The notes under the pieces are model-generated. The model was not told the DNA's origin and made no database searches. It saw only the letters and a program-made list of their open reading frames with translations. From positions 124,001-188,000 of the forward strand of contig CALAJQ010000020.1 in the NCBI GenBank assembly GCA_937922785.1: a stretch of 64,000 nucleotides of DNA, given 5' to 3'. Origin of the DNA: an uncultured Acidimicrobiales bacterium (GTDB taxonomy: Bacteria > Actinomycetota > Acidimicrobiia > Acidimicrobiales > SZUA-35). Positions 9,439 through 13,825 of the stretch are shown piece by piece; within the stretch, counting starts at the first letter, position 1, and each line of letters starts with the position of its first letter. Position numbers and translations under genes: made by a program.

Positions 9439-9792
9439 CTAGCTCAGGAGTTCGCGGATGCGGTCTTTAGGTCGGCCGACGATTGCCTTGTCTTTGGTTA
9501 CCACGATCGGCCGTTGAAGTAGCTGCTTGTGCTTCACCAGGATGTCTACGATCTGGTCGACCGATTGCACGTCTTCGTCAGTGAGTTCTAGCTTCTTGAA
9601 CTTGGCGTCCCTGCGAACAAGCGCGGTGGGTTCGTCTTCCAAGTTCTTGATGATGCTCCGAATCTCATCGGCATCAGGCGGATCCTTGATGTAGTTCCGC
9701 TCTTCGAAGTCAACGCCTAGTTCTTCTGCAATGCGCACGGCATTGACCGAAGAGTTTCAATGGCGGTTGTGATAGATCTTTACGTCAGACAT
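9439..9792 (-). CDS. arsC: ArsC-family arsenate reductase, probable selenoprotein (in-frame TGA = Sec12)
   Basis: Read from ATG at 9792, the frame gives 'MSDVKIYHNRH', then TGA (9757-9759), then 'NSSVNAVRIAEELG' and on to a stop at 9439, 117 residues in all, the family's normal length. The start 'KIYHN' and the position of the TGA coincide with the 'IYHNPAC' active site of ArsC, so the TGA replaces catalytic Cys12. The three arginines that bind arsenate in the plasmid R773 enzyme (Arg60, Arg94, Arg107) fall at exactly residues 60 ('ALVRRD'), 94 ('LQRPIVV') and 107 ('VGRPKD'). A SECIS-like hairpin follows the TGA (9722-9753). The family reduces arsenate to arsenite with glutathione/glutaredoxin or a similar thiol. 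A standard-code reading would start at the GTG at 9738 and lose the active site. Confidence 0.85.
9722..9753 (-). promoter_or_regulatory. bSECIS-like hairpin in the ArsC-like gene
   Basis: In the coding-strand mRNA an outer stem TCTTC/GAAGA encloses an inner perfect 6 bp stem CAATGC/GCATTG with apical loop CGTGC. The loop begins 17 nt after the TGA and has G in its second position. This fits the published bacterial SECIS model (loop 16-37 nt after UGA, a G in the first two loop positions), which recruits SelB and Sec-tRNA. Confidence 0.75.
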
Positions 9793-9884: not shown

Positions 9885-11288
9885 ATGTTGTTATCAATCA
9901 CCTCTACAACGGCGGACGCGACGATCCTCGGCTACCTGCTCCACAAGCATCCCGACCGGGTTCGCTCGGTAGACGTTGGATTCGGTAGAGCACACGTGTT
10001 TTACCAGGAGGCGTCGCCGGAGCGGTGCACCGCAACACTTATGGTTGAAGTCGACCCAATCTCGCTTAGCCGCAAGCGGAACAGCCGTAACACCCAAAAC
10101 CTGGAGCCTTATGTAAACGATCGGCCCTATGCCGCATCGTCGATGTTAAGCGTGGCCATCGGACGCCTGTTCGGCACTGCAATGTCAGGAACATGTGACA
10201 CCCATCCGGAGTTGGTTGACCAGAAAATGGACCTCGAACTTGAGCTTCCGGTCGTGCCGGTGCGTGGTGGTGAAGATGTCTTGCGGCGCCTCTTTGAGCC
10301 ACTCGGATATAGCGTTGACTGCACACCGATCGCACTTGATCCGCAGTTTCAGTCATGGGGAGACAGCAACTACTTTGCGTTGACGTTGTCAGGAAGCCAC
10401 ACCGTCCAGCGCGCCCTTGCACACCTGTTTGTGCTGTTGCCGGTGCTAGATGATCGCAAGCATTACTGGATCGGCGAAGATGAGATCGACAAGTTGATGC
10501 GTCGCGGTGGCGATTGGTTGCCCAATCATCCCGAGAGTGAGTTTATTACTCGCCGCTACCTTCGCTTTGGTGCGTTAACGCGCGAAGCCCTCGCACGGCT
10601 GGCCGATGGAGCTGAAGACTCAGACCAGGCCGACGCTGAACTAGACGAAGCGGAGGCAAAAGTAGAGCGGCCTCTCAGCCTGAACCAACAACGGCTCGAC
10701 GCCGTCACTGATGCAGTCGTAGCGATGGGTGGTGGCAGGGTTGTTGACTTGGGGTGCGGAGAGGGTCGGCTGCTTGAACGTCTTGTAGCTGAATCTTCGG
10801 TGTCTTCAGTGCTAGGCGTAGACGTTTCGATCGCAGCGCTGGAGCGTGCCGAGCGGCGCTTGCGACTGGACGAAATGTCAGAGCGTCGTCGTGAAAGAGT
10901 GACCCTGGCTCAGGGAGCGCTTACCTACGTTGATGACCGGATTGTCGGACACGACGTTGCCACAGTTGTCGAAGTCATCGAGCACATCGATCTCGAGCGA
11001 CTCGACGTGTTCGCACGGGTACTGTTTGGTCACGCTGCACCCGCTGCAGTGATCGTCACCACCCCTAACTCTGAATACAACGTGCACTTCGAGAAGCTGG
11101 GACCCTCAGCCATGCGTCACGGCGATCACCGGTTCGAATGGACCCGCTCGGACTTCAAGCAGTGGGCATTGTCAGTGTCCGAAGATTATGGCTACGTGCC
11201 AGAGTTTTCATCTATTGGACCGGACGACCCGACCACCGGGCCGCCCACTCAAATGGCGGTATTCAGACGCGGTCAGGAGGCGGTCTGA
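9885..11288 (+). CDS. hen1: Bacterial Hen1, RNA 3'-terminal ribose 2'-O-methyltransferase
   Basis: A 467-residue protein matching bacterial Hen1 in length and layout. The N-terminal about 240 residues are the Hen1 N-domain ('MLLSITSTTADATILGYLLH' start), which stimulates the partner ligase. The C-terminal half is a SAM methyltransferase with 'VVDLGCGEGRLLERL' and the Mn-binding Hen1 motif 'EVIEHIDLERL', followed by 'VIVTTPNSEYN'. It methylates the 2'-OH at the 3' end of cleaved RNA before ligation, so the repaired RNA resists recutting by ribotoxins. It overlaps the Pnkp gene by one base (TGATG), the standard two-gene RNA-repair cassette. Confidence 0.92.
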   Translation: MLLSITSTTADATILGYLLHKHPDRVRSVDVGFGRAHVFYQEASPERCTATLMVEVDPISLSRKRNSRNTQNLEPYVNDRPYAASSMLSVAIGRLFGTAMSGTCDTHPELVDQKMDLELELPVVPVRGGEDVLRRLFEPLGYSVDCTPIALDPQFQSWGDSNYFALTLSGSHTVQRALAHLFVLLPVLDDRKHYWIGEDEIDKLMRRGGDWLPNHPESEFITRRYLRFGALTREALARLADGAEDSDQADAELDEAEAKVERPLSLNQQRLDAVTDAVVAMGGGRVVDLGCGEGRLLERLVAESSVSSVLGVDVSIAALERAERRLRLDEMSERRRERVTLAQGALTYVDDRIVGHDVATVVEVIEHIDLERLDVFARVLFGHAAPAAVIVTTPNSEYNVHFEKLGPSAMRHGDHRFEWTRSDFKQWALSVSEDYGYVPEFSSIGPDDPTTGPPTQMAVFRRGQEAV

Positions 11289-13825
11289 TGAGAGACGGGC
11301 TATCAACAATCCAGGTTCCCCAGCTCGGACTCATCGTGTTGTGCGGTGCCTCGGGTTCTGGCAAGTCAACCTTCGCCGCCAAGCACTTCGCCGCAACTGA
11401 GATTGTGTCAAGCGATCAATGTCGAGCCCTGGTCGGCGACGACGAAACCGACCAGTCCGTTACCGCCCAAGCGTTTGCGTTGTTGCACGACATTACTGAC
11501 AAGCGACTTGAAGTTGGCCGACTCACCGTTGTCGACGCCACCAACGTGAAGCCTGAAGACCGCAAGTCTCTTGTTGACCTTGCCCGGAAGTGGGACGTGC
11601 TGGCCTCGGCCATCGTTTTTGATCTACCACTCAAAGTTTGCCTGGAACGCAACCAGCAGCGAGCTGACCGCCAGACGCCCGAGCACTCAATAAAGCGCCA
11701 GCACAAGAGTATGCGTCGCAGCGCCAGGTGGTTGCGCAAGGAGCGCTTCAGTCGTGTCTACACACTTGGGTCTGTGGCTGAGCTAGACGCGGTTGAGGTT
11801 GAGCGAACCAAGCTTTGGACAGACCGGCGCGATGACTCGGGACCATTTGACATCATCGGTGACGTTCACGGGTGCGACGAAGAACTACGTAATCTGTTGA
11901 GCAAGCTTGGCTACGACGTATCCGCCAACCCGATCGCCCACCCTGACGGACGTCGTGTGGTGTTCCTTGGTGACCTGGTGGATCGAGGCCCCGGCACTCC
12001 CGAAGTGCTGGACATAGCAATGTCGATGGTAGAAGCGCGAACAGCGCTGTGCATTCTCGGTAATCATGAGAACAAGTTGGGCCGTGCGCTGGCCGGAAGG
12101 AAAGTACAGGTGACCCATGGGTTGGCTGAATCGCTAGAGCAGATTGACGCCCGTCCTGACGATTACCGCCAGCAGGTGGCGGACTTCATTGACAGCCTTG
12201 TCAGTCACTACGTTTTGGACGATGGCCGCTTGGTTGTTGCCCACGCTGGCTTGCCAGAGCGCTATCACGGTCGGGCGTCTGGCCGCGTGCGCAGCCTCGC
12301 TCTCTATGGCGACACCGATGGCGAGACCGATGAGTACGGGTTGCCTGTTCGCTACCCGTGGGCGGAGGAGTACCGGGGAACAGCTGCTGTGGTCTATGGG
12401 CACACGCCGGTCCCAACTGCGGGCTGGCTGAACAACACAATCTGTCTTGACACGGGCTCTGTTTTTGGGGGAGAGCTAACTGCCTTGCGCTGGCCCGAGA
12501 AGGAACTGGTATCGGTCCCGGCGCTGCAGGAACACTATGAACCAATTCGCCCGGTGGTTGAAGAGCAACCCGAGCGTCCGGCGTTACTGCTTGACGTTCA
12601 GGACGTGCTGGGCAAGCACTACGTCGAGACTGGCCTGGCGGGTCGCTTAACCATTGAGGCCGAGCGATCGAGCGCGGCGCTTGAGGTAATGAGCCGGTTC
12701 GCAACTGACCCTCGATGGCTTGTGTACCTGCCGCCAACAATGGCGCCAGTAGCTACTAGTAAGCGCCCTGACTACCTCGAACATCCTGACGAGGCGTTCG
12801 GCTATTACGCCCGCACCGGCGTAGGCGAAGTTGTATGTGAAGAGAAGCATATGGGTTCTCGGGCAGTGCTAATTCTCGCCCGTGACTCAGTCGCGGCTCA
12901 AGCAAGGTTCGGTATCACGAACGATGCGGCTGGCGTCATAGTCACCAGGACGGGCCGACCGTTCTTTAACGACAAGGCAATCACGGCGTCACTTCTGAAT
13001 GGAGTTCGTGCGGCGGTTGATGAGACAGAATTGTGGGCAACTCTGAACACAGACTGGTTGGTCATCGATGCCGAACTCCTGCCTTGGTCAACAAAAGCGA
13101 AGGAGCTTTTGAAGCGGCAATACGCAGCAACTGGGGCAGCTGCGACAGCGATGTTGCCTGCCGCAGCCCGGGCCCTCGAGGTTGCCCTTGACCGTGGCAT
13201 CGACGTGTCCGATCTCCATTCCCGGACCGCAAACAGACAGACTCACGCCGAGGCCTACGTGGAGGCCTATCGCCAATATTGCTGGGAAACGAACGGTGTT
13301 GAGGGCATTGAAATCGCGCCGTTTCAGATTCTCGCCGCCGAAGGCGAAGTCCTTGCCCGACGCCCTCATCGTTGGCACCTTGAAACCATCGACTCGATGA
13401 TCCCAGCACAGCCAACGCTTCTTCGTCGGACCGAGCGTCACTACGTGGATCTTGCCGACCAGAGTCAGATCGATCAGGCAACGAAGTGGTGGGAAGCGGC
13501 CACCGAAAACGGGGGCGAGGGCATGGTCATTAAGCCGGCGCAGCCAATCACGCTTGGGAAAAAGGGCCTGATTCTTCCGGGTGTAAAATGTCGAGGGCGA
13601 GAGTATCTGCGGATCATCTACGGACCGGAGTACCTCGAGCCCAAGAACCTTGAGCGTCTCCGCGAACGGTCCCTTGGGCGAAAGACTTCGTTAGCTCGTA
13701 GAGAGTTTGCGCTAGGAATCGAAGCACTTGATCGATTCGTGGCTCGGGAACACCTGTTCAGAACACACGAGTGCGTGTTCGGTGTGCTTGCCCTAGAGAG
13801 CGAGCCTGTAGATCCCCGCCTTTAG
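11288..13825 (+). CDS. pnkp: Polynucleotide kinase-phosphatase-ligase Pnkp (RNA repair)
   Basis: An 845-residue three-domain RNA-repair enzyme. Residues 1-170 are a 5'-OH polynucleotide kinase with P-loop 'GASGSGKST' (20-28). Residues about 178-450 are a binuclear metallophosphatase removing 2',3'-cyclic phosphate, with 'GDVHGCDEE', 'GDLVDRG', 'GNHENK' and 'VYGHTPV'. The rest is a ligase-like adenylyltransferase whose nucleotidyl lysine is Lys520 in 'EKHMGSR'. Known bacterial Pnkp can adenylylate but needs Hen1 to seal RNA, which agrees with the coupled hen1 gene (TGATG overlap at 11286-11290). The start at 11288 is set by that coupling and by the GGAGG shortly upstream; the frame is open further upstream inside hen1. 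Confidence 0.93.
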   Translation: MRDGLSTIQVPQLGLIVLCGASGSGKSTFAAKHFAATEIVSSDQCRALVGDDETDQSVTAQAFALLHDITDKRLEVGRLTVVDATNVKPEDRKSLVDLARKWDVLASAIVFDLPLKVCLERNQQRADRQTPEHSIKRQHKSMRRSARWLRKERFSRVYTLGSVAELDAVEVERTKLWTDRRDDSGPFDIIGDVHGCDEELRNLLSKLGYDVSANPIAHPDGRRVVFLGDLVDRGPGTPEVLDIAMSMVEARTALCILGNHENKLGRALAGRKVQVTHGLAESLEQIDARPDDYRQQVADFIDSLVSHYVLDDGRLVVAHAGLPERYHGRASGRVRSLALYGDTDGETDEYGLPVRYPWAEEYRGTAAVVYGHTPVPTAGWLNNTICLDTGSVFGGELTALRWPEKELVSVPALQEHYEPIRPVVEEQPERPALLLDVQDVLGKHYVETGLAGRLTIEAERSSAALEVMSRFATDPRWLVYLPPTMAPVATSKRPDYLEHPDEAFGYYARTGVGEVVCEEKHMGSRAVLILARDSVAAQARFGITNDAAGVIVTRTGRPFFNDKAITASLLNGVRAAVDETELWATLNTDWLVIDAELLPWSTKAKELLKRQYAATGAAATAMLPAAARALEVALDRGIDVSDLHSRTANRQTHAEAYVEAYRQYCWETNGVEGIEIAPFQILAAEGEVLARRPHRWHLETIDSMIPAQPTLLRRTERHYVDLADQSQIDQATKWWEAATENGGEGMVIKPAQPITLGKKGLILPGVKCRGREYLRIIYGPEYLEPKNLERLRERSLGRKTSLARREFALGIEALDRFVAREHLFRTHECVFGVLALESEPVDPRL

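Follow-up and report, generated by a model that had tools for sequence, protein, structure and literature searches.

Does a TGA codon at the active site of an ArsC-like reading frame specify selenocysteine (Sec), and is the protein that carries it an arsenate reductase? Both questions are raised by a gene in the window, the whole stretch of 64,000 nucleotides analysed here, which comes from the genome of an uncultured Acidimicrobiales bacterium. The original prediction described a 117-residue protein with an active site IYHN-RH-TGA and a frame that stays open past the TGA, and translation from 9792 to 9439 bears this out. The gene, for which no strand had been given, lies on the minus strand and reads MSDVKIYHNRH-U-NSSVNAVRIAEEL...GRPKDRIRELLS* when TGA is translated as Sec (Table 1). 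The only TGA in the frame is codon 12, at the position of the catalytic Cys12 of ArsC enzymes; since the protein contains no cysteine, Sec12 would be its sole redox residue. It had also been foreseen that standard annotation drops the first 18 codons together with the active site, and the standard ORF call indeed begins at GTG 9738 and gives 99 aa, so that the gene is missed through a start that falls past the active site.

Table 1. Features of the Sec-ArsC gene, in positions of the window.
Feature	Position	Strand	Evidence
Sec-ArsC coding sequence (ATG start, UGA = Sec at codon 12, TAG stop; 117 codons)	9439..9792	-	translation; Pfam ArsC 1.5e-14; 31 homologues; AlphaFold2 pLDDT 92
UGA codon 12, read as selenocysteine (catalytic Cys12 position)	9757..9759	-	TGA in 31/31 homologues
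Predicted bSECIS hairpin, whole	9722..9753	-	MFE structure; lower part TCTTC..GAAGA 80% paired, without comparative support
Apical SECIS stem-loop CAATGC-CGTGC-GCATTG	9729..9745	-	silent-site invariance in 21 type I genes; 100% paired in 19 distinct rows
Arg60 codon (arsenate-binding Arg in R773 ArsC)	9613..9615	-	invariant in 27/27
Arg94 codon (QRP motif)	9511..9513	-	invariant in 27/27
Arg107 codon (GRP motif)	9472..9474	-	invariant in 27/27

When the window protein was used to scan 84,980 species genomes, 31 homologues (53-90% identity) came up, whose hosts belong to the Acidimicrobiia and the Verrucomicrobiota (Akkermansiaceae and relatives), and TGA stands at codon 12 in every one of them. 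The protein is conserved on both sides of this codon and the codons upstream of it vary silently. Taken together, these observations exclude a pseudogene, a downstream start and a sequencing error at 9757-9759, the last of which had been named beforehand as something that could overturn the prediction. In the other ArsC homologues the same column holds cysteine, encoded by TGC or TGT.

The absence of sel genes had been named as a further way for the prediction to fail, and it is likewise excluded. The genome of the window (4.9 Mb, 95.7% complete) contains selA (384.6 bits, cut-off 267.9) and selB (275.2 bits, cut-off 242.25) as neighbours on contig C21, selD (368.1 bits, cut-off 125), and a tRNA-Sec (66.7 bits, gathering threshold 47), called by ARAGORN as tRNA-SeC with anticodon tca. 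The selenophosphate synthetase SelD (L050, contig C16) is a selenoprotein too, with its own in-frame UGA in the motif GAGUGCK. In a survey of the class, 296 genomes were scored for the TGA form of ArsC, the no-stop (Cys) form, selA and Acr3: selA is present in 37/37 genomes with a TGA form versus 33 of the 63 that have only a no-stop form (Fisher p = 4e-8). The latter 33 genomes (e.g. G096, G087 and G277) thus possess selA, yet have ArsC only as the Cys form.

The signal for Sec insertion would lie in the codons that follow the UGA, where the original prediction had seen a two-part hairpin fitting a bSECIS. This claim holds for the apical part; the lower one has no comparative support, 80% of its cells being paired, with no excess of covariation. 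The hairpin is the minimum free energy (MFE) structure of the 42 nt downstream of the UGA (-12.4 kcal/mol); its apical stem of 6 bp (CAATGC:GCATTG) and its loop of 5 nt (CGUGC, G at position 2), starting 17 nt past the UGA as predicted, fall within the published bSECIS constraints (loop 3-9 nt, upper stem 4-16 bp, G in the first two loop positions, loop 16-37 nt from the UGA, MFE <= -7.5; PMC13188914). Considered by itself, the hairpin of this single gene is not significant, a stem of that length arising in about 29% of synonymous recodings. When recoding was applied gene by gene, the median stem was 7 bp in Sec forms versus 5 bp in Cys forms; folding energy did not separate the two (mean z -1.0 vs -1.2) and is therefore not counted as evidence. 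An Rfam search of the region gave no meaningful match.

It is the comparison among genes with the same hairpin, here called type I, that points to a functional element. Each of codons 16-21 uses one codon for its shared residue across 21 such genes: Asn17 is AAT in 20/20, whereas 56 of the 65 Asn codons elsewhere in these genes are AAC, and Ile21 is ATT in 21/21, whereas ATC accounts for 149 of 166 Ile codons elsewhere. Columns with an invariant codon make up 6/6 within codons 16-21 against 6/46 outside (p = 5e-5). The apical stem, always paired, is nearly invariant and consequently offers no covariation signal. The comparative evidence for a putative SECIS in the window gene is thus strong, whereas the single-gene evidence is weak.

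A second type of hairpin is found in 36 genes, typically CCTTGGC-GGTC-GCCGAGG with its loop 23 nt past the UGA. Over 28 distinct rows 99.5% of its cells are paired, and here the covariation is real: three pairs changed on both sides, in 11 cells where shuffles gave 1.8. Neither the type I nor the type II motif was found in Cys orthologues. One selenoprotein family hence contains two SECIS hairpins, at 17 nt (L001-L007, L056-L076) and at 23 nt (L008-L031, L072, L078-L083) from the UGA, and to judge from the sequences the hairpin was apparently replaced within the family while the protein stayed conserved.

Selenocysteine at the catalytic position 12 of this ArsC appears well founded in the sequence data: the position is supported, and we consider it almost certain that UGA is decoded there as Sec. 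No observation spoke against Sec, apart from the lack of significance of the hairpin in a single sequence. The competing notion that TGA is a true stop, whether in a pseudogene, through a sequencing error or ahead of a start at GTG 9738, can appeal to the 99-aa ORF of the standard gene caller and to a hairpin that is not significant alone. But that ORF has no active site, the TGA forms are strictly linked to selA, and TGA recurs in all 31 independent homologues amid a conserved protein with silent variation upstream, so that a true stop is very improbable and in practice already refuted. Still less credible, to the point of being negligible, is a genome-wide reassignment of TGA to Trp, Gly or Cys, for which the in-frame TGA speaks and nothing further: among 19 long ORFs within the window's first 22 kb, 6 end in TGA, which argues against reassignment throughout the genome, Cys homologues have TGC or TGT at this position, and tRNA-Sec, SelA, SelB and SelD are all present.

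The second question, that of the substrate, is less easily answered. The protein belongs to the ArsC family (Pfam PF03960, 54.5 bits against a gathering threshold of 24, with U scored as Cys) and aligns with R773 ArsC (1jzw) over residues 1-116. In this alignment U12 falls on the catalytic position 12, and the three arginines that the original prediction had equated with those of R773 ArsC bear the same numbers (60, 94 and 107). In a Foldseek search with the AlphaFold2 model, ArsC structures come first (3rdw, 3f0i; also 1i9d) with TM about 0.85, and Spx structures follow closely with TM about 0.8. The NCBIfam arsC equivalog TIGR00014 (arsenate reductase, glutaredoxin) matches over its full length, but with 85.8 bits it stays below the cut-off of 106.05, as it does for all Sec proteins tested (85.8-105.8 bits; relatives 87.1-105.2). 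The score for TIGR01617 (Spx/MgsR) is also below its cut-off (66.2 vs 75.05).

Genomic context gives no support for a role in arsenic metabolism. Neither Acr3 nor ArsB nor ArsM scores above cut-off in the 95.7% complete genome, which shows none of the usual (if not strictly defining) context of R773 ArsC, an arsenite exporter or an ars operon. Across the 296 genomes, Acr3 is no commoner with Sec-ArsC (9/37) than where ArsC is missing (45/196). The neighbouring genes code for a RidA-like protein, a Rieske oxygenase and Hen1/Pnkp RNA repair and include no arsenic genes, and beyond close relatives no neighbourhood is conserved. The Hen1 (Hen1_L plus methyltransferase) and Pnkp (kinase, phosphatase, ligase) pair, at 9885-13825 on the plus strand and divergent from Sec-ArsC, constitutes a bacterial RNA-repair cassette. 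An ArsM-like match with TGA (L128, contig C12) was rejected as a selenoprotein: it sits where a glycosyltransferase gene adjoins a methyltransferase gene, in a sequence of about 22 codons (NSNA-TGA-ANHRxETSAASVAGERQ) that is repeated three times in tandem, each time with a TGA.

What had been proposed, an ArsC arsenate reductase with catalytic Sec, thus stands as far as the Sec is concerned (TGA in all homologues, Sec machinery, selA link, SECIS), whereas the name arsenate reductase is plausible on account of fold and Arg triad but less secure, given a missed TIGR00014 cut-off and an unsupportive context. On the basis of the modelled fold and of Arg60, Arg94 and Arg107, arsenate is probably the substrate, albeit with considerable room for doubt. 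Instead, the protein might be a Sec-containing oxidoreductase of ArsC fold that acts on something else, e.g. as a thiol/seleno-thiol redox switch or an Spx-like regulator. A gene that stands alone among non-conserved, non-arsenic neighbours, a genome with no detectable Acr3 or ArsB, the lack of co-occurrence with Acr3, the missed arsC cut-off and the good match of Spx structures all agree with such a function. The complete invariance of the three arginines, which a substrate other than an oxyanion does not obviously require, and the best matches of both sequence and fold, which bear the name arsenate reductase, are harder to accommodate; and an Spx-like role has against it that the UxxS site offers no CxxC switch of the kind typical of Spx. 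We regard a non-arsenate function as a genuine possibility, although one that falls short of even chances. Somewhat more doubtful, and offered tentatively, is a joint reading of all observations: a widespread Sec enzyme of ArsC fold in Acidimicrobiia and marine Verrucomicrobiota, whose function would not be arsenic detoxification, given that arsenite exporters are absent, that the gene stands alone and that Sec is largely kept where the selenium system is kept, and whose SECIS would have been rebuilt from a GGUC loop 23 nt from the UGA to a CGUGC/A loop at 17 nt.

If the protein does reduce arsenate, its mechanism might be as follows. The UGA at codon 12 would be decoded by tRNA-Sec and SelB, with the hairpin in the following codons as insertion signal, a step that is strongly supported. 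The selenolate of Sec12, near Arg60, Arg94 and Arg107, would then attack arsenate. An external thiol and a redoxin would resolve the intermediate, as they do for the R773 type with its one cysteine; with Sec12 as its sole Cys or Sec residue, the protein should depend on such a thiol. In this actinobacterial host mycothiol is a likelier thiol than glutathione: it is plausible in view of an MshC-like ligase, whose score is below the cut-off (434.6 vs 485.1) and better than that obtained when the protein is read as CysS. Arsenite would have to leave the cell by some route. That this account as a whole, a thioredoxin-fold ArsC selenoprotein attacking arsenate through Sec12 with external thiol resolution, is correct we judge fairly probable.

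The family of ArsC selenoproteins with a UxxS motif is already known. It was first reported from sea-water DNA, with 14 sequences from the Sargasso Sea in 2005 (PMC1088965) followed by 77 from the GOS data in 2008 (PMC2398784), which substantiates the marine-metagenome precedent cited in the original prediction, and it reappears in reviews of 2022 and 2026 (PMC9312934, PMC13188914; reference protein MBT3519430.1), the latter of which calls the functions of such selenoproteins largely uncharacterised. In the literature searched we found no biochemical test of the family, and in a search that was incomplete we found no paper that links Acidimicrobiia with selenoproteins. Compared by description, the window protein resembles selenoprotein ArsC form 1 in its family (COG1393/PF03960/TIGR00014), in Sec for the catalytic Cys, in UxxS and in a bacterial SECIS after the UGA; unlike that form, known mainly from metagenome reads, it comes from a genome of the Acidimicrobiia in which the Sec machinery is complete. 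With the glutaredoxin-linked ArsC of R773 and E. coli (1i9d, 1jzw; TIGR00014) it shares fold, length to residue 116, catalytic position, Arg triad and the lack of a second catalytic Cys, and it differs in Sec12 for Cys12, in having no Cys at all, in scoring below the TIGR00014 cut-off, in the missing ars operon and in a host that probably relies on mycothiol and not on glutathione. Spx and other ArsC-related regulators (1z3e, 7f75; TIGR01617) are similar in fold, length and match scores, but the window protein has UxxS and not CxxC, keeps the ArsC Arg triad and lies below the TIGR01617 cut-off. It adds a well-documented case, placed in a genome, to a selenoprotein family otherwise known mostly from ocean reads; new are the genome-resolved hosts, the occurrence of two SECIS layouts within the family, nested reversions from Sec to Cys, and a second Sec-ArsC paralogue elsewhere in the genome of the window.

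The paralogue (L053, contig C26, 1480-1839 on the minus strand) has the sequence FNPGUGKARG with a UxxA motif (GUGKA) and 41% identity to the window protein; with 105.8 bits it comes nearer to the arsC cut-off of 106.05 than the window protein does. The reversions emerge from a tree of 99 ArsC proteins over 121 columns (L111 and L116 left out), in which many forks are unresolved. Verrucomicrobiota Sec-ArsC (L009-L031) are placed in it among the Sec forms of Acidimicrobiia, and this position suggests that the gene may have passed horizontally between the two phyla. The Cys forms L070 and L084/L087/L094/L095 are nested within a clade of 25 Sec and 5 Cys proteins (support 98/95), which suggests that Sec was lost there by reversion to Cys. 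Among the genomes of the five nested Cys forms, G019, G095, G229 and G190 are without selA, and G087 has it. G019, with Cys-ArsC and no selA, carries the same genus code as G051, which has both Sec-ArsC and selA, and reversions of this kind, this same-genus pair included, constitute a natural experiment on what Sec contributes to ArsC.
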